Of a DNA stretch of 64,000 nucleotides, positions 12,417-59,011 are shown one piece after another; the stretch's first letter is position 1; each line of letters opens with the position of its first letter. Both the position numbers and the translations under genes were made by a program. Origin of the DNA: Cellvibrio sp. UBA7671. Lineage in GTDB: Bacteria > Pseudomonadota > Gammaproteobacteria > Pseudomonadales > Cellvibrionaceae. Below the pieces are notes generated by a model. That model worked only from the letters and a program-made list of their open reading frames with translations, was not told the origin of the DNA and made no database searches. The stretch spans positions 186,001-250,000 of the forward strand of contig DLHJ01000013.1 in the NCBI GenBank assembly GCA_002483145.1, written 5' to 3'.

Positions 12417-14906
<2,490 letters not shown>

Positions 14907-15027
14907 CTATACTTAGGTTGGATTTTTTACTTACTAAAGGTAAAAAGTTGCGAAAGGCGGTGATTATAGAGGCTGTACTGCCTGTGTGGGTATAAATATC
15001 TTGAAGCGCTAGCGGGAGTTATTTGCC

Positions 15028-15393
15028 ATGAAGCCGACTGACAATGTGACCAACAAATCTGCCAACTATGTAGCCAACAACCCTTATCACGTTATCCAAC
15101 CGGATTTGCCTTTTAGCCAAGAAGAAACCGGTGCATTCGGTGCGCTGAAGCATGAGGTGGACGACCTGGTTAAGCTCGAACTCACTGCTGAGCAGATGGT
15201 AGGTGAGGAGGTTGATCTGGCCAAGGCCTACATCCGTGAGGATGCCCAAGGTATTTGGAGCGATATGAAGCTCGGGCTTGCAGAGCTGGAACTAATCACT
15301 GGGGATTGGCTGTTGCGCGCCGCTGATCCAACCCGCGTCGAGTGGCAACTGAATCATTGGTGGGAGGATGAGGAGTCCCAATTCCGTCATTAA
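15028..15393 (+). CDS. YbeL/DUF1451-like protein lacking the zinc ribbon
   Basis: A 121-residue acidic helical protein without cysteine. The pattern ELTAEQMVGEEVDLAKAYIREDAQGIWSDM followed by LLRAADPTRVEWQLN parallels the helical part of E. coli YbeL (family DUF1451), including the closing D-x-T-x-x-EW motif. YbeL-type proteins normally continue into a four-cysteine zinc ribbon, which is absent here. Position next to leuS, divergent from it, also matches ybeL synteny. Function of the family is unknown. The assignment rests on pattern and context and is not certain. Confidence 0.6.
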   Translation: MKPTDNVTNKSANYVANNPYHVIQPDLPFSQEETGAFGALKHEVDDLVKLELTAEQMVGEEVDLAKAYIREDAQGIWSDMKLGLAELELITGDWLLRAADPTRVEWQLNHWWEDEESQFRH

Positions 15394-15503
15394 CGGATGC
15401 ATAATCCCATTTATACGACAAGTTTGTTAAGCTCTCGTCTGTCTGATCATTGATATCAGTCCTTTGATGCATCATCACTGACAAGAACTAATGAGAGAAC
15501 TCC

Positions 15504-16430
15504 ATGTATGTATCCTCAAGGCGCACGCTGAGTGCGCTTGCCTGCATTTTATTGTCCTGTCTGCCAATCCTTGGAGCTGCCCAGCCTGTGAGCGAATTGC
15601 TTGTCGATCCTATTTATCTGTGGGATGAAAAACCCTTGGTCATTCCCGACCGCGAACATATAAAAGACCAGCGTGTTTACGCGGTGGATAATCCGGCGAT
15701 GATCCCTTATTGGCCCGCTGTCGATAAAGCCAATGGCACGGCGGTAGTGATTTTTCCTGGCGGCGGTTATGTGCGGTTGGCGATCAACCACGAGGGGCAC
15801 GATATCGCCAAGTGGTTTGCGGCGCGCGGTGTTGCGGCCTTTGTGGTCAAGTACCGGATGCAGGAGTACGGCTTTCCTGCCCCTTTACTTGATGGCTTGC
15901 GCGCGGTGCGCCAGGTGCGTAAACACGCAGGTGAGTGGGGAATTGATCCAGCCAAAGTGGGAGTGATTGGTTTCTCGGCCGGCGGCCATCTGGCGGCGAG
16001 CGTTGCCACCCGTTCCGATTTCACCTTTGCACTGGATGACCCGCTCGGCGCTATCAGTGCGCGTCCTGATTTTGCGATTCTTGGCTATCCGGTTATCGCC
16101 CTTTACGGCCCCGATGCGCATGCGGGTTCACGCAAAGCCTTATTGGGCGAAAATCCCGATCCCAAAAAGCTGCATGACAATTCCTTACAATTTCAGGTGA
16201 CGGATAAGGTCCCGCCGGTGTTTATGCTGCATGGTATCGATGATCAGGCTGTGCCTGTAGGCAACAGCCTTACCTTTTTTACCGAAGTGCAAAAACACAA
16301 TAAGCAGTCCGAGTTACATATTTACCAAACCGGAATTCACGGTGTGGGGATGATTCAGGGGCAGGGCAGTGTATCAAGCTGGCCAGACTCCCTTGAGCGG
16401 TGGTTAAAGCAAAACAACTGGATTCATTAG
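15504..16430 (+). CDS. Secreted alpha/beta hydrolase (esterase)
   Basis: A 308-residue protein with a signal peptide (LSALACILLSCLPILGAAQP). It has the alpha/beta hydrolase core: oxyanion-hole motif VVIFPGGGYVRLA near residue 80, the nucleophile elbow GVIGFSAGGHLAASVA (Ser about 160), an acid in FMLHGIDDQAVPVGNS (about 245) and the catalytic His in GIHGVGM (about 285). This is the BD-FAE/acetylesterase-like layout that often removes acetyl groups from xylo-oligosaccharides; actual substrate unknown. It probably adds to the set of secreted esterases earlier in the window. No operon partner; the GGDEF-EAL gene starts 59 bases downstream. Confidence 0.82.
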   Translation: MYVSSRRTLSALACILLSCLPILGAAQPVSELLVDPIYLWDEKPLVIPDREHIKDQRVYAVDNPAMIPYWPAVDKANGTAVVIFPGGGYVRLAINHEGHDIAKWFAARGVAAFVVKYRMQEYGFPAPLLDGLRAVRQVRKHAGEWGIDPAKVGVIGFSAGGHLAASVATRSDFTFALDDPLGAISARPDFAILGYPVIALYGPDAHAGSRKALLGENPDPKKLHDNSLQFQVTDKVPPVFMLHGIDDQAVPVGNSLTFFTEVQKHNKQSELHIYQTGIHGVGMIQGQGSVSSWPDSLERWLKQNNWIH

Positions 16431-16489
16431 CACTATGAACACAAATAGCAGAAGGAATACGAGCGCAACCTTTTGGGAGAGACGCAGTT

Positions 16490-18526: not shown

Positions 18527-18667
18527 TTGTCGCTTTTGCTTGCGATTGATTGGCCATTTGGCATACAATCGCCGCCCCTGAAATCAGGTATACGACGCTA
18601 GTCCCAAACGCCAAGGCATGTCGCCCGGCTACTTCGTGTCGTCCAAGCGTTGTTTTTGGAGCAAAGA

Positions 18668-18985
18668 ATGAGCGCATATGCAATTTTTGAAAGCGGTGGC
18701 AAGCAACATCGCGTAGTTGTGGGTGAAACCCTCAAACTCGAAAAAATCGATTTCACCACTGGTGGCGTTGTTGAATTCAACAAAGTGTACCTGGTTGCCA
18801 ACGGCGCAGACGTCAAGATTGGCGCTCCTGTTGTTGAAGGTGCAACTGTTACTGCTGAAGTGGTTGCTCATGGCCGTGCCGACAAAGTGAAGATCATCAA
18901 ATTCCGTCGTCGTAAGCACCACATGAAGCGTCAAGGTCATCGTCAGTGGTTCACCGAAGTGAAAATCACTGCTATCAAAGGTTAA
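18668..18985 (+). CDS. rplU: 50S ribosomal protein L21
   Basis: About 105 residues, matching L21: [20 protein letters not shown] at the start and the basic tail [19 protein letters not shown], which includes the L21 signature. It binds 23S rRNA. The frame opens at 18650 but the ATG at 18668, preceded by GGAGC, gives the family start. It is followed after 16 bases by rpmA with a GAGGAGG ribosome-binding site, as in most bacteria. A TACAAT hexamer at 18564-18569 may be part of its promoter, but no -35 at proper spacing is visible. Confidence 0.97.
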
Positions 18986-19422: not shown

Positions 19423-20667
<1,245 letters not shown>

Positions 20668-20707
20668 TCGCGGCCAATTAGCGCCAGCAGCAAAATAGTG
20701 TAACCTC

Positions 20708-20735
20708 ACGCCCGGGCACCGCTCCGGGCGTTTTG
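20708..20735 (+). terminator. Intrinsic terminator after obgE
   Basis: ACGCCCGG (20708-20715) pairs with CCGGGCGT (20724-20731) around an eight-base loop, followed by TTT. Confidence 0.8.
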
Positions 20736-20796
20736 TATTGATAGCCCGACTTTTTTATAAAAATTTCATTTATTTCTTCTTGAGCACATCCTATTC

Positions 20797-21921
20797 ATGA
20801 GCAAAAGAAACATCATTCCCCAAGCCAAGCGCTGGGTGGTAAAAATCGGCAGCGCACTTTTAACCAATGATGGCAAAGGGCTGGATGCAGTAGCAATTGC
20901 CGGCTGGGTCAAGCAGATGGCTGAGCTCCGCTTACGCGGAATTGAATTGGTGCTTGTGTCTTCCGGTGCAGTCGCTGCTGGTATGCGCCGCTTAGGTTGG
21001 GCTGCTCGCCCCACTGAAATCCATCAGTTACAAGCCGCTGCTGCTGTCGGCCAAATGAGTTTGATCCAAACCTACGAAGTGGAATTTCAGCGCTACGGTT
21101 TGCTCACCGCACAAGTGCTGTTGGATCATGACGATTTATCGTCGCGCCAGCGCTATTTAAATGCACGTTCCACATTGAAAACACTGATTGGATTTAATGT
21201 AGTGCCTGTCATTAATGAAAATGACACAGTGACCACCGAGGAAATCCGTTTTGGTGATAACGATACCCTTGGTGCGCTCGTTGCGAACTTAATCGAAGCC
21301 GATTTATTGGTCATTCTCACCGACCAAAAAGGTATGTACGACAGCGATCCTCGTTCCAATCCCAATGCGCAATTACTCAGCGAAATCGCTGCTGATGATA
21401 CCCGCCTCGAACAAATGGCGGGTGGCACTGGTGGTGCTTTGGGGCGCGGTGGAATGATTACCAAAGTGCGCGCTGCGCGCGTTGCCGCGCGTTCGGGGGC
21501 CGATACAGTCATTGTTGGCGGTCGCATCGACGATGCCTTATTGCGTATTGCCGCAGGTGAAAACCTCGGTACATTTTTGTGGGCTGAACAGCAACCGCAA
21601 GCCGCGCGCAAGCGCTGGATATCCGGCCAATTGCAAACCCGCGGTACCATTGTGTTGGATGATGGCGCAGCGCGCGTAGTGCGCGAGCAAGGCAAAAGTA
21701 TTTTGCCGGTGGGGGTAAAAGAAGTGCGCGGCGATTTCACCCGCGGTGACATGGTAATTTGCGAAGACCTGAACGGAAAAGAAATCGCGCGCGGATTAAT
21801 CAATTACCACGCCGACGAGGCGCGCAAAATTATCGGCAAACCCAGCAGCCAGATTTTCGATATTTTGGGTTATCAGGATGATAACGAATTAATTCATCGT
21901 GACAATCTGGTTTTAAGTTAA
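20797..21921 (+). CDS. proB: Glutamate 5-kinase
   Basis: A 374-residue enzyme that phosphorylates glutamate with ATP in the first step of proline synthesis. Residues about 1-260 are the amino-acid kinase domain ([61 protein letters not shown], the kinase signature [31 protein letters not shown]) and the remainder a PUA domain ([25 protein letters not shown]). Full length for the proteobacterial form. Position after obgE is the usual pseudomonad-type order. Confidence 0.96.
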
Positions 21922-21960
21922 TAGGTTGGTGTTGAGTTAATTTGTCTTTTGCTTAACGAT

Positions 21961-21993
21961 AAAAAACCCGCGTCAAAAACGCGGGTTTTTTTA
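21961..21993. terminator. Bidirectional intrinsic terminator
   Basis: A6, CCCGCGT (21967-21973), loop CAAAA, ACGCGGG (21979-21985), T7. It lies between proB (plus) and the PEP-CTERM gene (minus). Confidence 0.92.
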
Positions 21994-22003
21994 TTGCGCA
22001 GTA

Positions 22004-22612
22004 TTACTTCTGTGATTGCGACATTTTTGCCCGCAGTGCGATAACTGCCAGCATGCCAAGCAACAACAATAAGCTCGATGGTTCAGGTACGGAAATACTT
22101 GCTACATTTACTGTTGTTCCAGTGATGGTGTCGATCGATAGATCATTGCCGTACGCATCGCCGATTGTATTGACTGTCAGTGAAAAATTGCCGCTGCCAA
22201 TAGCGACGGCATTGAGCAGTACACTAAACAGCGTAAATTCGCCTGCCTGCAATAACTCCAAATCCAATGCATCATCAAAAGAAATTTCCAACGCGCTTAA
22301 CCAGTCCAGTCCGCTGCTGCTGTCTTGCAGGCTACCAAAACCGTTTAGGTCAAGCTGATTGCCCAATGTTGAGTCACCCCACAAAATGCTGCTGAAATTA
22401 AACAGACTGGCATCGTAATTAAAATTCACATCGTAAACGCCGAGTGCTGGCGCGCTGGCGTCACTCAAGCCGCTGATGCGCACCTGCACTTCAATATTGT
22501 CGCCAACATTGACGGCAGTTTGATTGGCGATAAGGTCAATGCTAATGGCATGGGCGTTGAGCGATAAGCTCAGGCCGAGAGCAAGTAAACCGGCGAATAA
22601 TTTTTTCATCAT
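22004..22612 (-). CDS. PEP-CTERM protein with a cohesin-like domain
   Basis: A 202-residue exported protein. After a signal peptide (KKLFAGLLALGLSLSLNAHA) the body resembles a cohesin-type beta-sandwich: VNVGDNIEVQVRISGL, then LGVYDVNFNYDASLFNFSSI, and later AGEFTLFSVLLNAVAIGSGNFSL. The C-terminus is a PEP-CTERM sorting signal: VPEPSSLLLLLGMLAVIALRAK, i.e. Pro-Glu-Pro, a hydrophobic helix and a basic end. Such proteins are cut by an exosortase and passed to the outer surface or exopolysaccharide; no exosortase gene is in the window. Its neighbour on the same strand, 13 bases upstream, encodes a nuclease with a dockerin repeat, so the two are probably co-transcribed and may bind one another. 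Confidence 0.82.
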   Translation of the reverse strand: MMKKLFAGLLALGLSLSLNAHAISIDLIANQTAVNVGDNIEVQVRISGLSDASAPALGVYDVNFNYDASLFNFSSILWGDSTLGNQLDLNGFGSLQDSSSGLDWLSALEISFDDALDLELLQAGEFTLFSVLLNAVAIGSGNFSLTVNTIGDAYGNDLSIDTITGTTVNVASISVPEPSSLLLLLGMLAVIALRAKMSQSQK

Positions 22613-22625
22613 AAACTCCTATTAA

Positions 22626-25139
22626 TTAGTTAATGGCGCAGCCAGTGCGAGTGCACTGCAAGGTGAGTGCGCGTGCGTCATTGGCATTAATGATTCCGTC
22701 GCCATTCACATCGCGTTGGTCAAATGCGGTTGGCGTTACGCCGCGCGCATTGGTCACGAGCTGCACATCGCTTTTATCGACGTCGCCGTCGCCATCCAAA
22801 TCGATAATTAATTTGAGTGAAACCACTAGCGGATCATGATCAGAAGAACGATAGGCATCGGTGCTATAAAAATTCGCAATTTGCGCGGCAGATTTAAATT
22901 CGGTGTTGTAGTCGAGGCTGATAGGTTCGTCGGCGTTGATGTGCCAATCAGCGGCATACAAGACTTGTGGTGTTAATGCATTGCTCGCCAGTCCATGATC
23001 CAGATAGCCGGCTTGTCCATCAAATACATAGGAGTAAGCGGCGTCGCCGCCGAAATGGTTAATCAAATCGGTATAGCCAGCGTTGATAATTTGGACGATG
23101 GGGTTTTCTTTAGCGTAAGCATTTAAATCGCCGATGATTAAATAATCGCGATCATTCACGCCGGTCGGATGGGTGCCCAGCCAATTTACTAATGCAGTGG
23201 CCGCTTGGGTTCGGGTGATATTGCAATTGCCTTGACCATCACCGATATCGAGATCACCTAAATCATTACAATCCGAACCTTTGGATTTCAGGTGATTAAC
23301 GGCGACTGTAGCAATCGCACGGTTGCTATTGGCGCGGAAACTTTGCGCGAGTGCCGGGCGGTTTTTGGTATCGATAAATTGTGAATCGACACTTGAATCG
23401 AGAATCGCTGTCTTACCAATCGCAGTGGCTTTGTCACTGCGATAAATAAATCCAACAGCGATTTCATCGGTACCGATTTTATTCACTCCTGGATTAATAT
23501 ATTTCCATGCGCTGGTTCCGGTAGCGGCATTGACTGCTGCTGTTAATTCGGCGATTGCACTGGTGCTGCCGTAGCCATCGTTTTCAATTTCAATCAGGCC
23601 GATCACGTCGGCGTTCAAGCCCACCAGTGCGCTGACAATTTTTGCTTTTTGCCGTGCAAATTCCGTTGCTGTATTAGCGCCGCGTGAGGTTGGGAAACCG
23701 CCGCCAGTTCCGTTACCGTTGAAAAAGTTCAGCACGTTAAAGCTGGCGATTTTTAAATTCGCCGCCGAATCTGTTACAGGTGCAAGTGGGCGTGCATTGG
23801 TATTAACAAAATTTGGTGTGCTGGTGGGGAGAATGCGGTACACACCAAAATCGTAAGTGATCACACCTTGCAGATTCGCTACTGTATCGCCACTGCGTAA
23901 AGTATTTTCAGCAGACAAACCCGGAGCAGGGAAAATTACCGGATCAGGATTTTGCAGGTTGCTTGCGTCATCCATCATCAACTTATTCAAATTATTTTGC
24001 GCCTGCAACACATTGGCTGCTGCACCGGGTTCGACCACATTGGTTGGTTGTTGCAAACGGCCATTAGCCAGCAATAATTGTCCGTAGCGACCCAATTGAT
24101 AGGTTTCATTGACGGTGAGGGTTTGTGCTATCGCCACTGACATGCCTTCGATTTTTTCAAATGCATCCAGTGATGCAACAGGCCAGGAAATGGTCGCAGG
24201 TGTTGGCAATGTTTGGTTGTTCGCACACACAGTGACAGTGGCGTTATTGAGTTGAGTTAACTCAAATGTTTCTGCCACCACACCACTTACTCGTACGCGA
24301 TCACCCACAGAAACCGGTGTGGTGCTGGCGATATAAATGCCTTCTGAGGTGTTTGCATTACCATCGTTGTCGGCATCTTCTTCCTGAATAAAAAATCCGC
24401 CGAGTTGATTGGCGTTTTGGAAATCGGCCACCACGATGGCTTCGATGCTGATGTTATTGCCGACTAACGCGCTCGCAGTTCCTGATCCTTGAATGCTTGC
24501 GATGCGTGTTGCACTTTCACCGCACTTGCCAGCAGTGCCGCCACCATTATTGTTGCCACCGCCGTTGCTGCTGCCTTGATAAGTGCCGAGGTGATCGACG
24601 GTATCCTGTGCGTAACCTTCCCATTCCAGCGCCGGATCAAAACTATTGTTGATGCTTACGTCGCCGGTGGTGATAGAGGTTTTACGGCGCAAGGTATTGT
24701 CTGCGGTGCTGGTAAAACCTGTGCCCCATTCGCTGCCGGGATCAACGCCGACTTGCCCGATGCTATCCAAAACCGTGTTGCCATTTTTCAACACAATCGC
24801 ATCGTCGCCGTTAAACCAGCCTGAACTATTGGTTTGGTTGGCTGTGGCCAAAATCGTCGCATTGGCACTGCCGTGAGCAAGCACAAACACACCATTGGCG
24901 GGAATGCTGCCGGTGAGGTTGACGGTCAGGCCCGCGCTGTTGCTACCGTTGAAATACATCTCGACTTTGTAGCCACTTAAACTAATTGCGCTAGCGCTGC
25001 TGTTGTAAATCTCCAGCGCTTTATTGTTGCTGCTGCCTTCAATGTATTCGGAAAAGTACAGATCGGCGGCGGCGGGTAGCGCGCTCAGGCTTGCAATCGC
25101 GACCGCCAATAATAGCGGCTTGTGGGTCTTATAGTTCAT
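22626..25139 (-). CDS. ExeM/NucH-type extracellular nuclease with lamin-tail and dockerin domains
   Basis: An 837-residue secreted protein. Order: signal peptide (to about residue 25); a lamin-tail domain (DLYFSEYIEGSSNNKALEIYN ... ALAHGSANA-like, about 26-170); an OB-like region (about 210-315); an endonuclease/exonuclease/phosphatase domain (about 450-775); and a C-terminal dockerin repeat. The EEP residues are visible: IASFNVLNFFNG, GLIEIENDGYG, AVNHLKSKGSDC, IIGDLNAYAKENP and SSDHDPLVVSL. The dockerin part has two calcium-binding loops, DLDGDGDVDKSD and DVNGDGIINAND. ExeM-type enzymes degrade extracellular DNA for nutrition or biofilm turnover. The dockerin beside a cohesin-like PEP-CTERM protein hints at surface docking. 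Confidence 0.88.
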   Translation of the reverse strand: MNYKTHKPLLLAVAIASLSALPAAADLYFSEYIEGSSNNKALEIYNSSASAISLSGYKVEMYFNGSNSAGLTVNLTGSIPANGVFVLAHGSANATILATANQTNSSGWFNGDDAIVLKNGNTVLDSIGQVGVDPGSEWGTGFTSTADNTLRRKTSITTGDVSINNSFDPALEWEGYAQDTVDHLGTYQGSSNGGGNNNGGGTAGKCGESATRIASIQGSGTASALVGNNISIEAIVVADFQNANQLGGFFIQEEDADNDGNANTSEGIYIASTTPVSVGDRVRVSGVVAETFELTQLNNATVTVCANNQTLPTPATISWPVASLDAFEKIEGMSVAIAQTLTVNETYQLGRYGQLLLANGRLQQPTNVVEPGAAANVLQAQNNLNKLMMDDASNLQNPDPVIFPAPGLSAENTLRSGDTVANLQGVITYDFGVYRILPTSTPNFVNTNARPLAPVTDSAANLKIASFNVLNFFNGNGTGGGFPTSRGANTATEFARQKAKIVSALVGLNADVIGLIEIENDGYGSTSAIAELTAAVNAATGTSAWKYINPGVNKIGTDEIAVGFIYRSDKATAIGKTAILDSSVDSQFIDTKNRPALAQSFRANSNRAIATVAVNHLKSKGSDCNDLGDLDIGDGQGNCNITRTQAATALVNWLGTHPTGVNDRDYLIIGDLNAYAKENPIVQIINAGYTDLINHFGGDAAYSYVFDGQAGYLDHGLASNALTPQVLYAADWHINADEPISLDYNTEFKSAAQIANFYSTDAYRSSDHDPLVVSLKLIIDLDGDGDVDKSDVQLVTNARGVTPTAFDQRDVNGDGIINANDARALTLQCTRTGCAIN

Positions 25140-25442
25140 GGTTGGCTCCCTGTTAAACCTGGTGGGTTTGATGATCGTGGAGCGCAGCTTAGGGGGAGTT
25201 TGTTACGGAGCCGTGGCGGGATTTGGTCGTTTGTGTGATGTTTTTGTGACGCCAGAATGCAATTGTCGGATCGCTGGCTATAGCGAATCCTTCTACAGGA
25301 AATGTAAAGATGGGGAACTTGCGGCGAAAGTGGGGAGTCCGAACTGTCCACCCTTTTAATCTAGGCAATCTGACTTGAAACGATAACGCTGTGATCTGTA
25401 CGTCTGCATCTGTGTAGACAAAGACGCTGTATGGAGGTTTTT

Positions 25443-26036
25443 ATGAACACCAGAAACGATCTTTTGCTCGATAAGATTGAACTTCGCACCCCGCTCACCT
25501 CCGATGGTGACGCACTCAAAGGCTTGCTCGCTACCACGCCCGTCCTCGACGGCAATTCCGTGCAGTGCACACTCCTGCAATGTGGCCATTTTGCCAAAAC
25601 TTCAGTTGCGGCTTTTTTGCACGGACGGCTGGTGGGGTTTGTATCGGCTTATTATCCACCCAACGAACCGCAAACTTTGTTTGTGTGGCAAGTGGTGGTC
25701 TCGCAACAATTGCGCGATCTCGGTTTGGGTAAAAAAATGCTGCACTGGTTGGTCGCCCAGCCCGCGTGTGAACAAGCTGTGCGCCTGGTGACGGCGATCG
25801 GCATTAAAAATTCGGTCTCCTGGTCGATGTTCGATAGTTTTGCGCGTGATATAGGCGCCTTACCCATCAAATCCTTTGTGACTCCGCTAACACCGAAAGA
25901 CGGTTACGAGCAAGACGAATACCTGCTGCGTATTTCCCCGCTCCCCAATCGCGCCGAGCAATCTGCAAGCGACCCACTGGAGGATCTCAAAGCCAGCGGC
26001 TCACATATCTCGGCGATGCGTCGCTGGTTGGATTAG
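25443..26036 (+). CDS. ectA: L-2,4-diaminobutyrate N-acetyltransferase (EctA), orphan
   Basis: About 197 residues with a GNAT fold. The run VLDGNSVQCTLLQCGHFAKT ... GRLVGFVSAYYPPNEPQTLFVWQVVV matches EctA (LDxNSxYxYLLLxxxF ... GFVSGY ... P.T.FxWQVAV), and LRDLGLGKKMLHWL is the acetyl-CoA loop. EctA acetylates diaminobutyrate in ectoine synthesis, but ectB, ectC and the EctR regulator are not adjacent, so it is an orphan here. The open frame begins at the ATG at 25431, yet GGAGG (25433-25437) with five T's before the ATG at 25443 is an ideal ribosome-binding site, so I take 25443. The product may serve N-acetyl-diaminobutyrate formation or ectoine made with genes elsewhere. Confidence 0.82.
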   Translation: MNTRNDLLLDKIELRTPLTSDGDALKGLLATTPVLDGNSVQCTLLQCGHFAKTSVAAFLHGRLVGFVSAYYPPNEPQTLFVWQVVVSQQLRDLGLGKKMLHWLVAQPACEQAVRLVTAIGIKNSVSWSMFDSFARDIGALPIKSFVTPLTPKDGYEQDEYLLRISPLPNRAEQSASDPLEDLKASGSHISAMRRWLD

Positions 26037-26153
26037 TTTAGCGGCGACCTTTGGTCGCTCGCCCCCTGCGACAATTTGTCACTATCGGTGGCGCATTAAA
26101 GCGCATAAGGTTTCACCCAAAATACGCAAGCCATGCATATAAGGGTGAGATAA

Positions 26154-28487
26154 GTGAGAAGACTGCAATACCTAAGCGCGATGGTAATCGCGAGCTTTGG
26201 GGCTGTTGGTGTGGCCCAAGCGCATGAAGAGGTGCTGAAAAAATCCAAGCGCGCTAAAAATGCCGAAGTTGAAGAAGTAAAAGTTTGGGGCGAGGCGCGC
26301 GACAGCTCGGCATCCGGTTATACCAATCCCACCAGCGTTCTGACCCAGGAAGATATGGTCAGCATCAACGCGACTACCACTGAAGATCTGGTCAAATACG
26401 AGCCGAGTCTCGTTATCCGCAAACGTTACATTGGCGATTCCAACGGCACCCTGGGTTTGCGTGGTTCCAATATGTTTGCCACGCCGCGTTCAATGGTATT
26501 TGCCGATGGCGTGCCCCTGCATTACTTTTTGCAAACCCGCTGGAGCGGCGCGCCGCGTTGGACCATGGTGAGTGCAAGTGAAATTGCGCAGGTAGAAATT
26601 CTCTACGGCCCTTTCTCTGCCGAGTACAGCGGCAACTCCATGGGCGGTGTGATCCTGATTGAAACCGCGATTCCGCAAGAGCGACAAGTGCATTTGGATC
26701 TGGATTATTTCTCGCAAGATTTTTCTGCGTACGGTTTTAGTGATCGCCTCGACGGCTACAAAACTTTTGTCTCCTACGGTGAAACGTTTGGCGATTTCAG
26801 CTTGTATCTTTCCTACAACCGTTTGGAAAATGAGAGCCAACCCCAGTCCTATTATTTTGACAGCAAGCGCACGCTGAATAACGCCACGCCTGTGACAGGT
26901 ATGGTCACAGACACCGATGTATTTGGTAAACCCGCGTACTATTTTGGCGATACCGGCATAGAGCAGGCGGTTACCGATAATTTCAAAATTAAAGTGGGTT
27001 ACGATTTTGACAACTGGTCGAGCTTGTTAAATATCGCCTATGAAGATCGCAACACCCTGCGCGATACCCCGAATACCTATCTAACCAATGCGGCCGGCAA
27101 TAAAGTCTGGTCGGGCAATTTTATTCAGGATGGTATCGCGATTACCGTTCCCGCATCGCGCTTGGGCGCCAGCGAATTGGATCGTCGCAGTTTGTCCACC
27201 GGCTTGCGGATAAAAGGCGAGTTAAACGAGCAGTTGCGCTTTGAAGGCAATGTGAGTGACTTCCGGATTTTGGAAGACAACTCGCGTGCATCCAGTCATT
27301 CACTGCAAGATCCATTATTCAAAGGTCGCGGACAAACCACTGACTATCAGGACACAGGTTGGCAAACGGCTGAAGGTAAATTTGTTTTTACCGGCATAGA
27401 TGCCATGGAATTGATTTCCGGCGTTCGTTACGAAACCTACGAGCTCAATTTGGACGTATTTAATTCCGCTAATTGGGAGCAGGCGGACAACGCAGGTTTT
27501 GCTAGTCGTTCCGGTGGTGAAACCAATATCGCTGCCGCATTTGTGCAAATGAATTGGGATGTCATTGAGCGTTGGGATTTGGCATTGGGCGGCCGCTATG
27601 AGCAGTGGCAAAGTAAAAATGGTTATTACAGCAAAGATATCGCCGCCACACCGGCTTTTGATCTGGTTGAAGTTGCCGATGCAGATCGCAATCAATTCTC
27701 GCCAAAATTTTCACTGGGTTATGTTCCCGCTGAATACTGGTTGGTGCGTTACTCCTTGGCAAAAGCCTATCGCTTTCCGATTGTGGAAGAATTATTTACC
27801 CAGAGTTCAAATTATTCATCGGTTGTACAAGCACAACCGGATTTAAAACCGGAAAATGGTTTGCATCACAACCTGATGTTTGAAAAACAATTTGATGCAG
27901 GTTATGCGCGCATCAATATTTTTACCGAGACGATTAAGGATGCGATTGAGTCGCAAACCACGTTTTTGCCAAGCGGCTCCACTGTTCCCTCTGTTACTAC
28001 CTTTGCTGCTGTCGATGAAGTGGAAACAGATGGTGTTGAGTTAATTTTAAATCGCTATGGCGTACTGGTACCGGAGTTGGATATACGTTTCAATCTGGCT
28101 TATACCAAATCCATCATCACCGACAACTCAACGGCGGAAGCCAATAATCCAGCCGGCACTAAAAGTTTTGAAGGTAATGAGTACCCCCGCATGCCGCGCT
28201 GGCGTGGCAATTTGATGGCGACTTATCACGCAACCGATCGTTGGGATTTGAGTGCAAACCTGCAATACGCCGATAAAAGTTTTGGTCGCCTCGACAATAC
28301 CGACACTGCTGAGCAAGTGATGGGTGCGCAGGATGGTTACACCCGCGTTGGCGTAAAAACTACTTACGATCTTAGCGACCAAATCGAAGTGGGTTTTGGT
28401 ATTGATAACCTCACCGATGAAGAGAGTTATGTTGCACACCCATGGCCAGGTAGAAGTCTGTATTTAAGTCTCTCTTACGATATGTAA
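26154..28487 (+). CDS. TonB-dependent outer-membrane receptor
   Basis: A 777-residue receptor. It starts at a GTG (26154) with AGGGTGA upstream; the signal peptide ends near VAQAHEE. The plug domain (about 50-180) shows TTEDLVKYEPSLVIRKRY ... LGLRGSNMFATPRSMVFADGVPLHYF ... IAQVEILYGPFSAEYSGNSMGGVILIET, and the rest is a 22-strand-type barrel ending in RSLYLSLSYDM with the terminal aromatic-containing strand. The following gene encodes a PepSY membrane protein, a pairing common in siderophore or metal-chelate uptake. I found no clear Fur box upstream, so the ligand (ferric chelate, other metal, or saccharide) is open. Confidence 0.9.
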   Translation: MRRLQYLSAMVIASFGAVGVAQAHEEVLKKSKRAKNAEVEEVKVWGEARDSSASGYTNPTSVLTQEDMVSINATTTEDLVKYEPSLVIRKRYIGDSNGTLGLRGSNMFATPRSMVFADGVPLHYFLQTRWSGAPRWTMVSASEIAQVEILYGPFSAEYSGNSMGGVILIETAIPQERQVHLDLDYFSQDFSAYGFSDRLDGYKTFVSYGETFGDFSLYLSYNRLENESQPQSYYFDSKRTLNNATPVTGMVTDTDVFGKPAYYFGDTGIEQAVTDNFKIKVGYDFDNWSSLLNIAYEDRNTLRDTPNTYLTNAAGNKVWSGNFIQDGIAITVPASRLGASELDRRSLSTGLRIKGELNEQLRFEGNVSDFRILEDNSRASSHSLQDPLFKGRGQTTDYQDTGWQTAEGKFVFTGIDAMELISGVRYETYELNLDVFNSANWEQADNAGFASRSGGETNIAAAFVQMNWDVIERWDLALGGRYEQWQSKNGYYSKDIAATPAFDLVEVADADRNQFSPKFSLGYVPAEYWLVRYSLAKAYRFPIVEELFTQSSNYSSVVQAQPDLKPENGLHHNLMFEKQFDAGYARINIFTETIKDAIESQTTFLPSGSTVPSVTTFAAVDEVETDGVELILNRYGVLVPELDIRFNLAYTKSIITDNSTAEANNPAGTKSFEGNEYPRMPRWRGNLMATYHATDRWDLSANLQYADKSFGRLDNTDTAEQVMGAQDGYTRVGVKTTYDLSDQIEVGFGIDNLTDEESYVAHPWPGRSLYLSLSYDM

Positions 28488-30882: not shown

Positions 30883-31626
30883 ATGAAAATAACATGGAAT
30901 GAATACAAGAATATTGCATCTGATAATATTGAGAAAGATATTTTTTATATGTATCGCGGTCAATCTGACTCGAATTGGACTTTGATTTCATCACTGGTCA
31001 GAACAGGAATAGTTCAATCTCTGGGTGATTTTCAAGCGTATTTTAATTTGGTTTTGCCTCAAGTAAAAGAAAAAATTCAGGCATGGGAAGGGCGTGACTG
31101 GAATCTTGCGGATCAATTGGGTTTGGCTGAATTTGTAGCGTATCTTCAGCACAACGGTTTTCCAACGCCACTCTTAGACTGGACACTTTCCCCATATGTG
31201 GCTGCCTACTTTGCTTTCGAAGGTGTAGACCCTTTCAATGCAAAATCTGAATCCGTGTCTATATACTGCTTTAATGCAGGTGCATGGCGAAATAAATTTA
31301 AACAAGAAAATGATATTGCACATGAACCTTCTCACGTATCATTGCTTCATCCAAGAATTGTCGGCAATCATAAGCTCGCACTTCAACAAGGTTGTTTTAC
31401 ATTTAGCAATGTAATAGATGTTGAAGTTCATATACGTGATTGTGAAACTGAGGCGGATCATTTTTTAGATAAATATATTTTAAAAGCAGATGAGCGGCCC
31501 AAGGTTATGAAAGAGCTTTCGCTCATGGGTATTTCAGCTGTTCAACTAATGCCATCTATTGAATCTGTATGCAAAAAAGCTCTAAATGATTTAATTGGTT
31601 TGTCGCCGATACGAAGATTACCGTAA
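30883..31626 (+). CDS. FRG-domain protein
   Basis: A 247-residue protein with the FRG signature: FYMYRGQSDSNWTLISSLVR near residue 20 (the Phe/Tyr-Arg-Gly that names the family) and AYLQHNGFPTPLLDWTLSPYVAAYFAF near residue 85. A conserved tail LQQGCFTF ... ISAVQLMPSIESVC completes the domain. FRG proteins occur in bacteria and phages; their biochemical activity is not settled, though distant similarity to ADP-ribosyltransferases and links to phage defence have been proposed. The gene is much richer in A+T than its neighbours and stands alone between unrelated genes, which suggests recent transfer. The start at 30883 follows AAGACAAGTAG. Confidence 0.85.
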   Translation: MKITWNEYKNIASDNIEKDIFYMYRGQSDSNWTLISSLVRTGIVQSLGDFQAYFNLVLPQVKEKIQAWEGRDWNLADQLGLAEFVAYLQHNGFPTPLLDWTLSPYVAAYFAFEGVDPFNAKSESVSIYCFNAGAWRNKFKQENDIAHEPSHVSLLHPRIVGNHKLALQQGCFTFSNVIDVEVHIRDCETEADHFLDKYILKADERPKVMKELSLMGISAVQLMPSIESVCKKALNDLIGLSPIRRLP

Positions 31627-32224: not shown

Positions 32225-32316
32225 GTAGGGGCGCTGCTTGCTGCGCCCTGTTTTTTTGTTTGATCTTTTTCTTTTATCTGGTGGATTGGGTTGGGCGCAG
32301 CAAGCGGCGCCCCTAC
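32225..32316. repeat. REPIN-like inverted pair of GTAG-headed units
   Basis: The left unit (32225-32248) reads GTAG, then GGGCGC, TGCTTGCT, GCGCCC. The right unit (32293-32316) is its reverse complement with one mismatch in 24 bases. The 44-base interior is T-rich on the plus strand. The left unit alone, followed by TGTTTTTTT, also makes a good intrinsic terminator for the plus-strand gene ending at 32172. Same family as 58892-58973. Confidence 0.8.
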
Positions 32317-32320
32317 AATT

Positions 32321-32692
32321 CTAGTCTGCAGCACTTATAAACTTCACCGGCTTTTCCCACACTGCTAACACCACACAACCTTCCTCGCTAAAAATTTCAT
32401 GGCTACTCGTTGCCGGATTAATTAAAAAAGTGCCTGCGTGATACTGGCCGCGTTCATCGCGTTGGCTGCCGCGCAGGATTAATAAAAATTCCATACCTAC
32501 ATGCAAGTGGCGCGGAATGTGGGCGCCGGGTTGGTAGCGGAGCAGGGCGCAGGAGCATCCTTTCGTTGGGTCCCCGTGGAGGGGCAGCATGTCTACTCCT
32601 TTGCGAAAGTCCTGCCAATGCAATGTGGGTGAATCGAAATCCATTGCTAATAAATCGCTCCACACCAATTTTTTTTCCGCGTGTTCTTCCAT
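32321..32692 (-). CDS. Cupin-domain protein, ChrR-like
   Basis: A 123-residue single-domain cupin. The first cupin motif reads GAHIPRHLHVGMEFLLILRG, giving the His-x-His and Glu ligands of a metal site; the second contributes the His in ATSSHEIFSEEG. The closest recognisable type is the ChrR/anti-sigma cupin fold (RYQPGA-x-x-xxHxHxGxEf). It starts nine bases after the biuret hydrolase stop, and its ribosome-binding site AGGAG overlaps that stop, so it is the last gene of the operon. It may bind a metal or a ligand of the pathway; an enzymatic role is not proven. Confidence 0.8.
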   Translation of the reverse strand: MEEHAEKKLVWSDLLAMDFDSPTLHWQDFRKGVDMLPLHGDPTKGCSCALLRYQPGAHIPRHLHVGMEFLLILRGSQRDERGQYHAGTFLINPATSSHEIFSEEGCVVLAVWEKPVKFISAAD

Positions 32693-32701
32693 GCGTTTCT
32701 C

Positions 32702-33385
32702 CTAGGTTTCCAGTGCGGCGAGTAAATCGGTTGAAGTGGCGACGGCACCAAATACGCCGCCCTGCATGTGGATCATCGCCAATGCAGCCGCATGATTGGC
32801 GGGGTCGGTTGCGGCGCAGCAGTCGCTCAGCAGCACGCATTCAAAACCGCGATCATTTGCCTCGCGCATGGTGGTGTGAACGCACACGTCGGTGGTGATG
32901 CCGGTGAGAATAATATTTTTAATGCTGCGCAGATGCAGCACCATTTCCAAATCCGTTGCATAGAAAGAACCTTTGCCGGGTTTGTCGATAATAATCTCGC
33001 CTGCGATAGGTGCCAGCTCGGGAATAATTTCCCAACCCGGTTCGCCGCGAATTAAAATTTTTCCGCAGGGACCTTCATCGCCAATGCCTGCGCCGATTTG
33101 GCGTGAGCGCCAGCGTTTGTTTGCGGGCAAATCGGCGAGGTCCGGCCTATGTCCTTCGCGGGTGTGGATAATGTGGAAGCCGGCGGCGCGCAGCGCCGGC
33201 AATAATTTCCGCAATGGTCCAATCGGTGCGCGCGTTAAATTGATGTCGTACCCCATGGTGTCCACGTAACCACCTTTGCCGCAAAAATCCGTTTGCATGT
33301 CGATAATAATCAGCGCGGTATTTTCCGGGCGTAGATCTCCATCGTAGGGCCATTTGTAGGGTGTGCTGTTTAAATAAATCGACAT
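32702..33385 (-). CDS. biuH: Biuret amidohydrolase (isochorismatase-like cysteine hydrolase)
   Basis: A 227-residue enzyme that closely resembles the biuret hydrolase of Rhizobium leguminosarum: [58 protein letters not shown]-type [14 protein letters not shown], and [20 protein letters not shown]. The catalytic triad Asp29, Lys135 and Cys168 is in place with the same spacing as in the rhizobial enzyme. It would split biuret to allophanate and ammonia in the cytoplasm. It begins 13 bases after the permease gene and overlaps regulation with it. Allophanate hydrolase is not in this window. High confidence in family, good but not final confidence in substrate. Confidence 0.85.
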
Positions 33386-33398
33386 AATCGCTCCTTAA

Positions 33399-34979
33399 TC
33401 AATGTGCTGGCTCAATGATTTCTGTTTCGTGATCTTCTGCCGGCGCTTTGGTCGATACCACACTGAATTTAGCGCAGGCAAATAAAACACCCGCAACCGC
33501 GAGATAGGCGAAGGCAACCGTGGGTGATTCCGCAATGCCAATCGCTTCACCGTGCATTAATCCGAAAAACGTCAGCACTGCACTGGCGCAGGCAAACCAC
33601 CCTGCCTTGATAAAGTTGCGGTCGATAATAAACGCGGTAATGGCGCCGAGCATCAAGCCGCCGAGAATCGCGCCGCCGCCCAGTACCGATAATCCTTCAT
33701 AGAGCACTCCGTTTTGCGCGAGCTTATCCAGCCCGACGGCGGCGGCGTTGGTGCCCGCTGCACCGAGTACGTTATCGATTTGCAATTTGCCCCAGGCGGC
33801 GAGGTGCGGCATGAGCGAAACAATAATCGCGGGCGCGTGGGATTTGGGGCTTTCCTGAAAAGCTTGCGAACCGATCAGCATGCCGATGTAGAGCAGGATG
33901 GGCGAGATGGCCACCAGCGGAATCGCCGAGGAAAACACCGCAATAATGCCCAGCCAACAGAGCACCAGCACCGCAATGCCCGTCGCTGCGGAATAGCCAA
34001 TGCCGCCGCCCATGGATTTCCAGCCGGGGTGGCCAATGTAAACCGCGTTGATAAAGGGGTTGCCCATGCAACAGCCGATCAGGCTGATCACGCCGTCGGC
34101 CGTGAGCACGCGGGTGGTGGGGTAGCTATCGCCGGCCACGGCGGCGCTCTCCACGTTATCCATAGCTTCGACCAGATCGTAGATGCCGAAGGGGATCGCG
34201 GTGACGAGGATGATCCCGATAAATTCAAACCCGGAAAACACATGGCCAACGGCGGGCACGGGCACCGAGAAGCCAAAGCTGGTGAGCGATTGGGTCAGCC
34301 CCTGCAGGGTGAGTCCGCCAAAATTGAGGCCGATAGCGGTTGAGCCCCAAGCGATTAAAGTTCCCGCTGCAATGGCTACCAGGCCTGCAGGAATACCTTT
34401 GAAATAGCGCACCCCGCCAAACCAGCTCAATAAGATAATGGCAAAACAGACTACGCCAATCACGGGGGTCATAAACATTTCCAGCGCCGGGCGCAGCGAG
34501 ATAAACGCAATGGACACACCGGCCAGAGTTCCCAACAGTGCGGCGCGCGGGGTAATTTTGCGGATATAAGGGGCGATGTAGCCACCGATCATCAGCACAA
34601 AACTCTGCACAAACACCCAGGTCAGACCCGCCTCCCAGCCTTTGATGGGGTCGCCGGTGGTGAGGCTGATGGGCAGCATAATCACAAACACCACCACAAA
34701 CATATGCGGCACGCTAATGCCCGAAGGCAGGGCGCAGACATCGGTGCGCCCTGTTTCTTTCGCCAGCTTGTAGGCGAGGTAAGCGTAATAGAGCGTGCTC
34801 AAACACATCATTAGCCCCACCGCAGGTAGTATTCGGCCAAAGACGATGTCGTCGGGCATCTGCAATACAAAGCGCAGCAGGCCCGTGAGTACCAGCAGGT
34901 TAACTAGGATATTGGTGCCAAAACCGAACAAGGCGTTCCAATCGCCCGGTACCCAAAGCGCGGGTTTGATAGTTTGCAT
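33399..34979 (-). CDS. NCS2-type (xanthine/uracil) permease, probable ureide transporter
   Basis: About 526 residues, 12-14 hydrophobic segments. Sequence features point to the nucleobase:cation symporter 2/solute carrier 23 superfamily, AzgA-like branch: CALPSGISVPHMFVVVF, GTLAGVSIAFISLRPA, a conserved acidic segment YDLVEAMDNVESAAVAGDSYPTTRVLTADG, and GCCMGNPFINAVYIGHPGWKS. Lying between two cysteine hydrolases of ureide type, it probably imports their substrate. The start at 34979 has GGAGGG seven bases upstream, which rules out the in-frame TTG at 34994. The C-terminus is an acidic cytoplasmic tail. Confidence 0.8.
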   Translation of the reverse strand: MQTIKPALWVPGDWNALFGFGTNILVNLLVLTGLLRFVLQMPDDIVFGRILPAVGLMMCLSTLYYAYLAYKLAKETGRTDVCALPSGISVPHMFVVVFVIMLPISLTTGDPIKGWEAGLTWVFVQSFVLMIGGYIAPYIRKITPRAALLGTLAGVSIAFISLRPALEMFMTPVIGVVCFAIILLSWFGGVRYFKGIPAGLVAIAAGTLIAWGSTAIGLNFGGLTLQGLTQSLTSFGFSVPVPAVGHVFSGFEFIGIILVTAIPFGIYDLVEAMDNVESAAVAGDSYPTTRVLTADGVISLIGCCMGNPFINAVYIGHPGWKSMGGGIGYSAATGIAVLVLCWLGIIAVFSSAIPLVAISPILLYIGMLIGSQAFQESPKSHAPAIIVSLMPHLAAWGKLQIDNVLGAAGTNAAAVGLDKLAQNGVLYEGLSVLGGGAILGGLMLGAITAFIIDRNFIKAGWFACASAVLTFFGLMHGEAIGIAESPTVAFAYLAVAGVLFACAKFSVVSTKAPAEDHETEIIEPAH

Positions 34980-35048
34980 AGCGGTACCCTCCAAAGTTGT
35001 AGTAGGCCTGTTAATTGATATTGCGGTAAAAGGCGCCAGCGATAATTG

Positions 35049-35735
35049 TTATGCCGCGTGGTGTGCCCGGTGGATGCCGTTGACAAGGGGTGCGGTGGTG
35101 GCGACCCAGCCGAAAATGCCGCCCTGTGCCGCTATCATCGCAACGGCCACACGGTGGAATTCAGGAAAGTAAGAGGCGCAGGCATCGCTCACCACCACGC
35201 AGCGATAGCCGCGGTCGTTTGCCTCGCGCACGGTGGTATGCACGCAGACTTCGGTGGTGACGCCACATACCAGCAGGTTTTCGATCTTGCGTTCCCTAAG
35301 TAGCTCGCCCAGCTCGGTGTGATAAAACGCGCCCTTGCCCGGTTTATCGACCACAATTTCGCCGTCGATCGGTGCCAGTTCGGGAATAATGCTGTGGCCG
35401 TGTTCGCCGCGGATCAGGATCCGCCCCATAGGGCCGGGGCTGCCGATGCGCAAGGCCGGTGTGCCCCGCTCGATCTTGGCGGGCGGGGCATCGCTTAAAT
35501 CCGGCAGGTGTCCCTCCCGCGTATGGATGACGAGCAACTTCGCCGCGCGCGCTGCCGCCAGTAATTGTTGGCAGGGGGCGATCGCCGAGCGCAGCAGGCT
35601 CACATCGTTACCCAAGCTCGCACCAAAGCCTCCGGGTTCGAGAAAATCGCGCTGCATATCGATAATCACCAGCGCGGTTTTGGCGAATTCCAGCACCAGT
35701 GGCGCTGGTTCGGCAGGCAAGAGGTAGGTCGTCAT
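35049..35735 (-). CDS. Second isochorismatase-like cysteine hydrolase (ureide amidohydrolase candidate)
   Basis: A 228-residue paralogue of the biuret hydrolase in the same operon. It keeps the triad context: Asp26 in ALVIIDMQRDFLEPGGF, Lys in VVDKPGKGAFY, and Cys in CGVTTEVCVHTTVREANDRG, plus the shared IHTREGHLPDLSDAPP and [22 protein letters not shown] blocks. It differs from BiuH in the CGKGGYVD and ANKRWRS segments near the pocket, so its substrate likely differs; triuret, which is converted to biuret by a related hydrolase (TrtA) in Herbaspirillum, is one candidate. It is distinct from RutB. The gene lies 30 bases downstream of the porin and 69 upstream of the permease. Confidence 0.8.
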   Translation of the reverse strand: MTTYLLPAEPAPLVLEFAKTALVIIDMQRDFLEPGGFGASLGNDVSLLRSAIAPCQQLLAAARAAKLLVIHTREGHLPDLSDAPPAKIERGTPALRIGSPGPMGRILIRGEHGHSIIPELAPIDGEIVVDKPGKGAFYHTELGELLRERKIENLLVCGVTTEVCVHTTVREANDRGYRCVVVSDACASYFPEFHRVAVAMIAAQGGIFGWVATTAPLVNGIHRAHHAA

Positions 35736-35765
35736 ACGCGATTCTTCCTGTACATCAGTAGAAGG

Positions 35766-36818
35766 TTAAAAACGGAAGCGGGCGCCGACGCCTAGTGTGT
35801 GGCCGGTCTGCTCGGCCAGGTCGGGGTCATCGCTGGTATAGGCTGAGTAGATATCGAACTGGCTGGTCAGCGGCAGGTTGTAGACCAGGGTGTAGATATT
35901 GCGGTCATACTCGTCAGCTGCGGTGCTGGTTTCGGTCAAGCCGTAGCTGAGGTAGACGGAGCCGGGGCCGGCGGCAATAGAGGCGCTTAGCACTAGCGTG
36001 TCGCGGTCGATATCGCCGGTGGCAAGCTCATCGCGCAGCAATTGGTACTGTGCATAAACCGTGCTTTTGCCGATGGCATAACTCAGCCCCGCAATGGCGG
36101 CGGTCTGGCTGTCATCCATAGGCAAACTGGTTGCGCCCGGCTGGGTACCGGAAACTTTCTGCACGGCGGCGGTCAGGCCAAGATTGCCGGATGTGTAAAA
36201 GGCATTGGCAGCGATTTTGTTAGTGCTGGTATCTCCCTCTTCCTCGCCGAAGGCGTAGGCGACACTGGTAGTGAAATTGCCCATTTTGGGCAAGCTGTAG
36301 ACCACTGAATCACTCCAGCCGGTGTCGCCATAAAGCCCGCCGCCGCCATATCCCATCAGGATCATCGGCGAGAAGGCAAAGGAGTCGCCAAAGGGGTTAA
36401 ACAAAATGGTCGATAAAAAATAGAGGCTGGTGGTGCGGCCCATTTTCACTTCGCCAAAGTCACCCGCCAGACCGACATAGGCGCTGCGGGCAAAAAAGAT
36501 ATCGTCGTCAAAGCGCCCCTGCTCAGCGGAGTCGGGTTGGAAAAACATCTCCACCGCGGCGATGGCGGTCAGTCCGTTGCCCAGTTCATGTTTGCCGTGG
36601 GCGCCCAGCCAGGAGGTGGTCATGCCGTTGGATTGGATGCCTTGGGTGCTTTCCGCATCGTCATCACCGGCTGGTTCATAATCGCTGGCGTAAACATCCA
36701 GCTCGCCCTTGAATACAACGGACGATTGGGCGATGGCGGTGTTGGTGATGAGTATCAGGACAAGGCTGGTGGTACCGGCAAATAGGCTTTTCAGGATTTT
36801 TCTTGGCACTATTATCAT
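35766..36818 (-). CDS. General-type outer-membrane porin
   Basis: A 350-residue porin of the Gram-negative porin_4 type. The signal peptide runs to about residue 30 (SLVLILITNTAIAQS). The barrel starts SVVFKGELDVYAS and ends TGHTLGVGARFRF with the terminal Phe recognised by the Bam machinery; strand motifs such as ARSAYVGLAGDFGEVKMGRTTS (the loop-3 region) are typical. It is the first gene of the ureide operon, with GAGGAG before the ATG, and probably admits the substrate. The palindrome at 36842-36861 lies just upstream. Confidence 0.87.
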   Translation of the reverse strand: MIIVPRKILKSLFAGTTSLVLILITNTAIAQSSVVFKGELDVYASDYEPAGDDDAESTQGIQSNGMTTSWLGAHGKHELGNGLTAIAAVEMFFQPDSAEQGRFDDDIFFARSAYVGLAGDFGEVKMGRTTSLYFLSTILFNPFGDSFAFSPMILMGYGGGGLYGDTGWSDSVVYSLPKMGNFTTSVAYAFGEEEGDTSTNKIAANAFYTSGNLGLTAAVQKVSGTQPGATSLPMDDSQTAAIAGLSYAIGKSTVYAQYQLLRDELATGDIDRDTLVLSASIAAGPGSVYLSYGLTETSTAADEYDRNIYTLVYNLPLTSQFDIYSAYTSDDPDLAEQTGHTLGVGARFRF

Positions 36819-36841
36819 GACTATCTCCTCAGTAATTTATT

Positions 36842-36861
36842 CATCGTTGTATACAACGATG
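36842..36861. promoter_or_regulatory. 20-bp perfect palindrome, probable GntR operator
   Basis: CATCGTTGTA joined to its reverse complement TACAACGATG, 24 bases upstream of the porin start. The core TTGTATACAA fits the FadR/FCD-type GntR consensus (GT-N-AC half-sites). A GntR gene is divergent at 37170. The remaining spacer to 37169 holds no gene; it contains one further short inverted repeat, AAGGC/GCCTT around GCTAGCG (37058-37074). Confidence 0.8.
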
Positions 36862-37169
36862 TGTTTAGCATAAGGTGTGCCAGCTCGAAAAATGAGCTAA
36901 AACCCTAAGGCTAAGCAGATGAATTACTTGAGGAATTTGGTGGGAAGATGCGGAGGTTTCAGCGAATATGAGGTAGGTGAACGGGCAGCGGTCAGCACTA
37001 AACCAATGCTTTGTCTTGGCATCTTGCACCGCCGCAGGGCGATAAGTGCGGTACTTTAAGGCGCTAGCGGCCTTGGTTTACAAGGTGCAGGTGCTCGCCT
37101 ACCATGCAAGTACTACCATGCAACTACCTACGTGTTAGCAAACGCAGATCAGCAAACGGAGCAGGTGTT

Positions 37170-37844
37170 TTGACAACCCCCAAATCAGCGGCACAACTGG
37201 TGTACGACCAGTTGAAACAAAAGATTATCGATTTTGAGATCTACCCCGGCACGCGCCTTACTGAATCTGAAATCGCCGAGGATTTCCAAGTCAGCCGCAC
37301 CCCGGTGCGCGCCGCGTTACAGCGTTTGGAAACTGAAGGCCAAATCACCATCATGCCCAAGCAGGGCTGTTTTGTGCGCTCGGTGGATATAGAAACCATC
37401 AGCCAGTATTACGATGTACGCATCATGCTTGAAGCCAGCGCGGTCGAACTCGCTTGCGATCATATGGAAGATGAGGATCTGGATGCGCTGCAAGAAGATT
37501 GGAATGCCGAGCGGCTGGATGATGAATTGGATATGGAAGAAATAAAGGCGCGCGAAGAAGCCTTTCACATCGGCATCGCCATCGGCAGCGGCAACCCGGT
37601 GCTCGCGAATTATCTGCGCGATATCAACAACAATATCCGCATCCTGCGGCGCTTGGGCTTTCCCGATCGTCAATCAGTAATTGAAACCTGTGAAGAACAT
37701 TTTGCCATCTGCCAATTAATCCGCGCCAAAAATAAAACCCAGGCGCGCAAAGCCATGACCAAACATATCCGCAAAAGCCAGGACCTGGCGCGCAGCGTGA
37801 CACTGAGCCAATTGCAGCAGGCGATCAAGCGGCATAAGTCCTAG
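37170..37844 (+). CDS. GntR-family regulator, FadR/FCD type
   Basis: About 224 residues. The N-terminal winged helix is clear (LVYDQLKQKIIDFEIYPGTRLTESEIAEDFQVSRTPVRAALQRLETEGQI), and the C-terminal FCD domain carries the metal/ligand helices (YDVRIMLEASAVELA, EEAFHIGIAIGSGNPVL, EEHFAICQLIRAKN, the His-rich set). The open frame starts at the ATG at 37104, but that part has no family similarity; the TTG at 37170, with GGAG eight bases upstream, gives the standard start LTTPKSAAQLVYDQL. Divergent from the porin operon, it most likely represses it by binding the palindrome at 36842-36861 until a ureide metabolite is bound. Confidence 0.87.
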   Translation: MTTPKSAAQLVYDQLKQKIIDFEIYPGTRLTESEIAEDFQVSRTPVRAALQRLETEGQITIMPKQGCFVRSVDIETISQYYDVRIMLEASAVELACDHMEDEDLDALQEDWNAERLDDELDMEEIKAREEAFHIGIAIGSGNPVLANYLRDINNNIRILRRLGFPDRQSVIETCEEHFAICQLIRAKNKTQARKAMTKHIRKSQDLARSVTLSQLQQAIKRHKS

Positions 37845-58973: not shown

Positions 58974-59011
58974 TGCGTTGTGAATGATTCAGTCAGGGTG
59001 AAGTGTAAATA

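Follow-up and report, generated by a model that had tools for sequence, protein, structure and literature searches.

Introduction

Which compounds does a bacterial operon with two isochorismatase-family hydrolases, a permease, a porin and a cupin import and degrade, and does its genome encode the rest of the route? Such an operon lies at positions 32321 to 37844 of a 64,000-nucleotide stretch of the Cellvibrio sp. UBA7671 genome (contig DLHJ01000013.1, called the window below; genome size, 5.04 Mb), together with a divergent GntR regulator gene. Here, we report a sequence analysis indicating that this is quite likely an inducible operon for the use of triuret and biuret, two nitrogen-rich compounds that contaminate urea fertiliser, as nitrogen sources. 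Gene identities (from sequence), active-site residues, phylogeny, gene order, an upstream palindrome and a complementary distribution of the cupin and AtzE were computed.

We infer the activities, transport and regulation as follows. Ureides would pass through the outer membrane by the porin and be carried across the inner membrane by the permease, which has a predicted NCS2 fold. The first hydrolase, TrtA, would hydrolyse triuret to carboxybiuret and ammonia; the metal-site cupin would decarboxylate carboxybiuret to biuret, where other TrtA bacteria use AtzE/G/H; the second hydrolase, BiuH, would hydrolyse biuret to allophanate; and an allophanate hydrolase, whose gene lies with that of urea carboxylase at another place in the genome, would complete the conversion to ammonia and CO2. 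The GntR protein would bind the palindrome and, most likely, repress the operon until ureide is present.

Gene order and conservation

The minus strand carries, in order of transcription, the porin (35766 to 36818; Porin_4; the first gene of the operon), hydrolase A (35049 to 35735; 228 amino acids), the permease (33399 to 34979; 526 amino acids, polytopic, with an alternative TTG start at 34994), hydrolase B (32702 to 33385; 227 amino acids) and the cupin (32321 to 32692; 123 amino acids). Gaps are 30 bases between porin and hydrolase A, 54 or 69 between hydrolase A and permease (depending on the start), 13 between permease and hydrolase B, and 9 between hydrolase B and cupin. The regulator, of the GntR/FCD type by family match, is encoded on the plus strand (37104 to 37844; 246 amino acids). 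This six-gene layout, with one-strand gaps of 9 to 69 bases and a divergent GntR gene, agrees with the original prediction, every open reading frame being found where it had been placed.

The gene set is not a chance grouping, because TrtA, permease, BiuH, cupin and divergent GntR genes recur in nine other Cellvibrio loci and on a Ketobacter contig. Ten other Cellvibrio genomes have the permease, and the comparison used nine loci from them (a fragmented genome, G375, was left out); all nine have GntR, TrtA, permease, BiuH and cupin in the same order, and the Ketobacter contig has the same layout as the window operon. Three gammaproteobacterial loci (L046 to L048) hold GntR, TrtA, permease, AtzF, BiuH and cupin genes in one cluster, with the order altered in L047.

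The two hydrolases

Isochorismatase-family matches in the genome number two, hydrolases A and B. Hydrolase B is, by its sequence, almost certainly a biuret hydrolase (BiuH) that converts biuret to allophanate. With the BiuH equivalog model NF050097 it scored 422.9 bits (cut-off, 370 bits), whereas hydrolase A, at 264 bits, falls below. The closest PDB sequence to hydrolase B is Rhizobium BiuH (6azo), and in the alignment its identity is 73.9% with BiuH and 47.4% with TrtA. The Asp29/Lys135/Cys168 set of BiuH, which the original prediction had read in one of the hydrolases, is present in hydrolase B, which equals 6azo at 13 of 13 compared positions, including the catalytic Asp/Lys/Cys, and has the BiuH-type Y, Y, S, D, T and V at six discriminating sites.

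Hydrolase A very likely hydrolyses triuret to carboxybiuret and ammonia. Its closest PDB sequence is Herbaspirillum TrtA (6xix), with 59.5% identity to TrtA and 49.3% to BiuH in the alignment, and it matches 6xix at 13 of 13 compared positions, including the catalytic triad. Residues that discriminate TrtA from BiuH are named in PMC7948467, and hydrolase A has all six TrtA-specific ones (F35, N41, A134, E160, Y187 and I205; positions after that paper). In a hydrolase tree (158 rows thinned to 110; bootstrap not fully settled), a TrtA clade of 78 rows separates at 100/99 support from the 32 on the BiuH side, of which five are divergent. Hydrolase A falls with TrtA in this tree and hydrolase B with BiuH, so the placement away from both reference enzymes that the original prediction had named as a refutation did not occur, and the earlier suggestion that the second hydrolase acts one step before BiuH, for example on triuret, is the best reading of its sequence.

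One result weighs against the assignment of hydrolase A: it belongs to a 70-row TrtA subclade, whose fork is weakly supported (99/48), and the sister group of 8 rows is the one with 6xix, the only assayed TrtA known to us, to which hydrolase A is 59.5% identical. This subclade, sister to that of the assayed enzyme and not the same, might act on another acylurea, such as a carbamoyl compound or a different product of uric-acid oxidation, which the permease would then import instead of triuret. BiuH is encoded within 10 kb of only 23 of its 96 members (some contigs are short), and a member on an Escherichia coli plasmid sits with fdrA, DUF1116, DUF2877, carbamate kinase and cytosine permease genes. 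We nevertheless hold this to be improbable, given the identity to TrtA at all 13 compared positions, the presence of the cupin, AtzE or AtzF (enzymes of carboxybiuret and allophanate) within 10 kb of 17, 12 and 16 of the 96 subclade loci, respectively, and the 23 of 26 whole-searched genomes with a TrtA of this subclade that encode both AtzE and AtzF (two of the other three encode BiuH and the cupin). A function of both hydrolases as RutB-like ureidoacrylate enzymes was also considered and rejected, at 120.8 and 118 bits on the RutB model (cut-off, 377.95 bits).

The E. coli plasmid (NZ_CP019909.1; positions 19944 to 28122 of locus L073) is conjugative, and its hydrolase of the TrtA subclade lies beside the genes just listed, with a 37.7% relative of the window permease about 20 kb away; the group is perhaps another ureide pathway. 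Plasmid records with a TrtA/BiuH-type relative at E 1e-40 came from Escherichia (78), Klebsiella (15) and Pantoea (14).

The carboxybiuret step

TrtA yields carboxybiuret (PMC7948467). In the route described in PMC6219798, AtzE acts together with AtzG on carboxybiuret to give dicarboxyurea, from which AtzH then forms allophanate. The window operon has the cupin, a Cupin_7 protein related to ChrR cupins, as a probable carboxybiuret decarboxylase that would form biuret and so enable BiuH; this assignment is made because of an invariant His-His-Glu-His set and because cupin and AtzE were not found together in any of 48 genomes. Residues H62, H64, E68 and H98, which we take to be the usual metal ligands of cupins, are invariant in 19 aligned sequences. 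The predicted structure (predicted local distance difference test [pLDDT], 89.2) resembles those of ChrR and several metal cupins.

We searched 48 genomes with TrtA or BiuH relatives genome-wide for the cupin (ortholog line, E ≤ 1e-20) and for AtzE (cut-off, 425.75 bits). The cupin alone was found in 20, AtzE alone in 25, both in none and neither in three (G093, G174 and G433), of which G093 and G174 are fragmented assemblies; with only one Cellvibrio retained, the counts became 11, 25, 0 and 3 of 39. Within 10 kb of 103 TrtA genes, there was the cupin only at 21, AtzE only at 14, both at none and neither at 68. The window's genome had no AtzE at E 1e-100. TrtA is encoded in 19 of the 20 cupin genomes; the remaining one, G171, lacks a canonical TrtA but encodes BiuH and AtzD, which also yields carboxybiuret, and its cupin gene lies near that of BiuH. 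Rhizobium leguminosarum WSM1325 has AtzD, BiuH, TrtA and cupin genes clustered together.

Several points count against a cupin decarboxylase. The 48 genomes are related and non-random (10 Cellvibrio and many Bradyrhizobium), so a Fisher test on the cupin/AtzE table overstates the evidence; the E-value line of 1e-20 was chosen after the gap between 5.8e-21 and 4.9e-15 was known; G093, G174 and G433 lack both proteins; and G171 has an AtzE-family match below the cut-off (349 versus 425.75 bits). Carboxybiuret also decarboxylates spontaneously, with a half-life of about 20 min (PMC7948467), so that a decarboxylase is not strictly needed.

The cupin could instead be a ChrR-like ligand or metal sensor, or a general helper of BiuH, with no enzymatic role in the pathway. 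Among solved structures, its best sequence relatives are anti-sigma cupins of the ChrR type and others with no assigned function, and within 10 kb of TrtA genes it was never called without BiuH. Against these roles stand the four invariant residues; the size of the orthologs read, which are stand-alone proteins of about 104 to 138 amino acids; the 13 BiuH loci of AtzE-bearing genomes (L243 to L255), at which no cupin was called; and the mutual exclusion with AtzE across the 48 genomes, which a BiuH helper would not predict. We therefore consider either role unlikely and retain the decarboxylase assignment.

The cupin may be the published TrtB, or something else. TrtB was reportedly first shown in another Herbaspirillum strain. 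It is named as a decarboxylase in PMC7948467 and PMC12625717, the available parts of which do not state its family, and the word "cupin" occurs nowhere in the main texts of these two papers or of PMC5806882.

Import

The permease had been called NCS2-type, a name that holds for its predicted fold and not for its sequence family. The window protein matched no Pfam or NCBIfam family at E 10 and no PDB sequence, and among 32 members of the permease family, nothing in Pfam scored below E 0.018. Its model (pLDDT, 82.7; predicted template modeling score, 0.79) has short strands at residues 86 to 88 and 311 to 313 and matches the UraA-type/NCS2 fold in Foldseek and VIA hits. Permease genes lie within 3 kb of 79 of the 96 TrtA genes in the window's subclade and of none of the seven in the assayed subclade.

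The outer-membrane channel is Porin_4 in the window and in loci L068, L069 and L070. It is Tsx-type in six of the nine other Cellvibrio loci, on the Ketobacter contig and inside clusters L046 and L047; the porin position is exchangeable between the two types. On balance, we favour import of ureides through the channel and the permease, the latter being a probable triuret/biuret importer.

Alternatively, the permease might import nucleobases or uric acid, with ureides arising inside the cell from purine oxidation and the operon serving salvage or detoxification. Carriers of uracil, xanthine and ascorbate share the predicted fold, the channel is often of the Tsx type, a nucleoside channel family, and the importer genes of the ATP-binding cassette (ABC) type near five of the seven assayed-subclade TrtA genes are of the nucleoside BmpA type (compare PMC12625717). 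The permease nevertheless follows the TrtA subclade in 79 of 96 loci, and six neighbouring window reading frames typed with Pfam are not purine genes by their names, in a comparison that did not extend to a genome-wide purine-gene search. Its family also matches no Pfam model; to our knowledge, known purine and uracil carriers do match such models. We regard import of purines as rather unlikely and return to ureide import as the favoured function.

A bolder reading, in which the permease founds a new family of NCS2-fold carriers for triuret and biuret and the cupin is an uncharacterised metal-dependent carboxybiuret decarboxylase that replaces AtzE/G/H non-orthologously, is possible yet tentative. 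The same caution applies to its further part, that the permease and one TrtA subclade are co-inherited as a two-gene module. Among the titles and abstract beginnings listed in a literature search that covered few subscription papers, none gave an account of the permease or of a cupin in the triuret/biuret pathway.

The rest of the route

The original prediction held that allophanate hydrolase was missing and the pathway incomplete. The genome search it proposed identified AtzF (TIGR02713) on contig C14 of the same genome at 835.3 bits (cut-off, 511.05 bits), and that claim falls: the AtzF gene is followed by genes for urea carboxylase (1,923.7 bits) and a second FCD-type GntR protein (positions 12473 to 18714 of locus L007). 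The route is complete at the genome level because AtzF is encoded in this other operon. Of the "self-contained cluster" first proposed, what stands is that most of the route lies in the window operon, and what does not is the self-containment, AtzF being in another operon with urea carboxylase. No AtzD cyanuric acid hydrolase was found in the window's genome.

All 21 Cellvibrio genomes encode AtzF, but the permease is present in 11 of the 21 and in none of 36 other relatives searched; the triuret/biuret operon therefore seems to have been added patchily to a urea amidolyase route found throughout the genus.

Two genomes do not fit a complete route. Methylobacterium sp. WSM2598 (G433, locus L095) has a TrtA-permease pair and AtzF, with no BiuH above the cut-off and neither AtzE nor the cupin, and so has no known route from carboxybiuret to allophanate at the thresholds used; G435 has TrtA, BiuH and the cupin but no AtzF at E 1e-100.

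Regulation

A perfect 20-bp palindrome, CATCGTTGTATACAACGATG, lies at 36842 to 36861, 23 bases upstream of the porin start codon, and is a likely, though putative, GntR operator. Its 18-bp core has one site in the window with up to three mismatches (0.01 expected). The centre, GTTGTATACAAC, occurs upstream of GntR genes in 12 of 16 examined loci, namely those of nine other Cellvibrio, the Ketobacter contig and the gammaproteobacterial loci L050 and L058, whose clusters have an ABC importer. Two results tell against this operator: exact GTTGTATACAAC is absent from the regions upstream of GntR in the other four loci (L046, L047, L048 and L103), and genome-wide enrichment of the 10-base core TTGTATACAA was rejected, with four sites versus five for the reversed control. 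A promoter scan was uninformative, with six sigma-70-like sites versus 4.8 expected. Several GntR orthologs have reading frames of 224 amino acids, which suggests, from sequence comparison, that the regulator starts near 37170.

The AtzF operon has a GntR paralog of its own and a conserved imperfect inverted repeat, CTTGTAT[C/T]CAAG. Of the 20 loci used (a 21st, L212, was left out), four had no anchor, and the upstream regions of the 16 with an anchor all contain the repeat. A single operator shared by both operons was rejected, since this repeat is related but different. Each operon is probably under the control of its own regulator, the two regulators being related, because the AtzF operon has both its own GntR paralog and its own repeat.

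Flanking features

The cupin gene is followed by an inverted pair of a 24-base repetitive extragenic palindromic (REP)-like unit (GTAGGGGCGC.GCTTGCTGCGCCC) at 32225 to 32248 and 32293 to 32316 of the window, with a third, imperfect copy at 58951 to 58974. An FRG-domain protein, of a family frequent near mobile or defence genes, is encoded at 30883 to 31626.

Comparison with known systems

If these assignments are true, the locus supplies triuret/biuret catabolism with a candidate dedicated permease and with a candidate enzyme that acts on carboxybiuret. It also supplies a regulator together with its likely operator, and Cellvibrio joins the bacteria that encode a triuret/biuret route. For carboxybiuret, cupin plus BiuH and AtzE/G/H would be apparently interchangeable solutions.

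The closest known systems are the TrtA-(TrtB)-BiuH-AtzF routes of Herbaspirillum sp. BH-1 and R. leguminosarum (PMC7948467). The window has orthologous TrtA and BiuH together, with the same active-site residues, and both routes end at allophanate hydrolase. The operons of both those species include AtzF, whereas the window genome encodes AtzF outside the operon, and the window TrtA belongs to the sister subclade of Herbaspirillum TrtA. In R. leguminosarum WSM1325, the stretch includes AtzD and an ABC importer of the BmpA type; where that species has the ABC system, the window has the NCS2-fold permease and an outer-membrane channel. A gene called "formamidase" (positions 4004 to 5020 of locus L071) recurs near BmpA-type ABC genes and BiuH/TrtA in rhizobial and Methylobacterium loci.

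The cyanuric acid operon AtzE-AtzG-AtzH-AtzF of Pseudomonas sp. ADP passes through the same intermediate, carboxybiuret, and also ends in AtzF (PMC6219798); the window genome has the cupin and BiuH in place of AtzE. AtzE does occur near permease-linked TrtA in other bacteria. ChrR-type cupins (Cupin_7) resemble the window cupin in sequence and fold, but the latter is short, stand-alone and linked to BiuH/TrtA. Carriers of the NCS2/SLC23/SLC26 fold (UapA, UraA, SVCT1 and AZG1) are only 11 to 16% identical to the window permease, which matches no sequence-family model.

Contigs with biuH from ammonia oxidisers, as described in the available part of PMC12625717, also have biuH, trtA, trtB, atzF and GntR genes near transporter genes. 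These transporters are an ABC nucleoside importer (bmpA-nupABC) and, in some archaea, a cytosine permease (codB); an NCS2-type route is not mentioned in that part. The triuret/biuret chemistry is a known pathway (PMC7948467); new or unassigned in the Cellvibrio operon are the import module, the operator and the part that the cupin likely plays.

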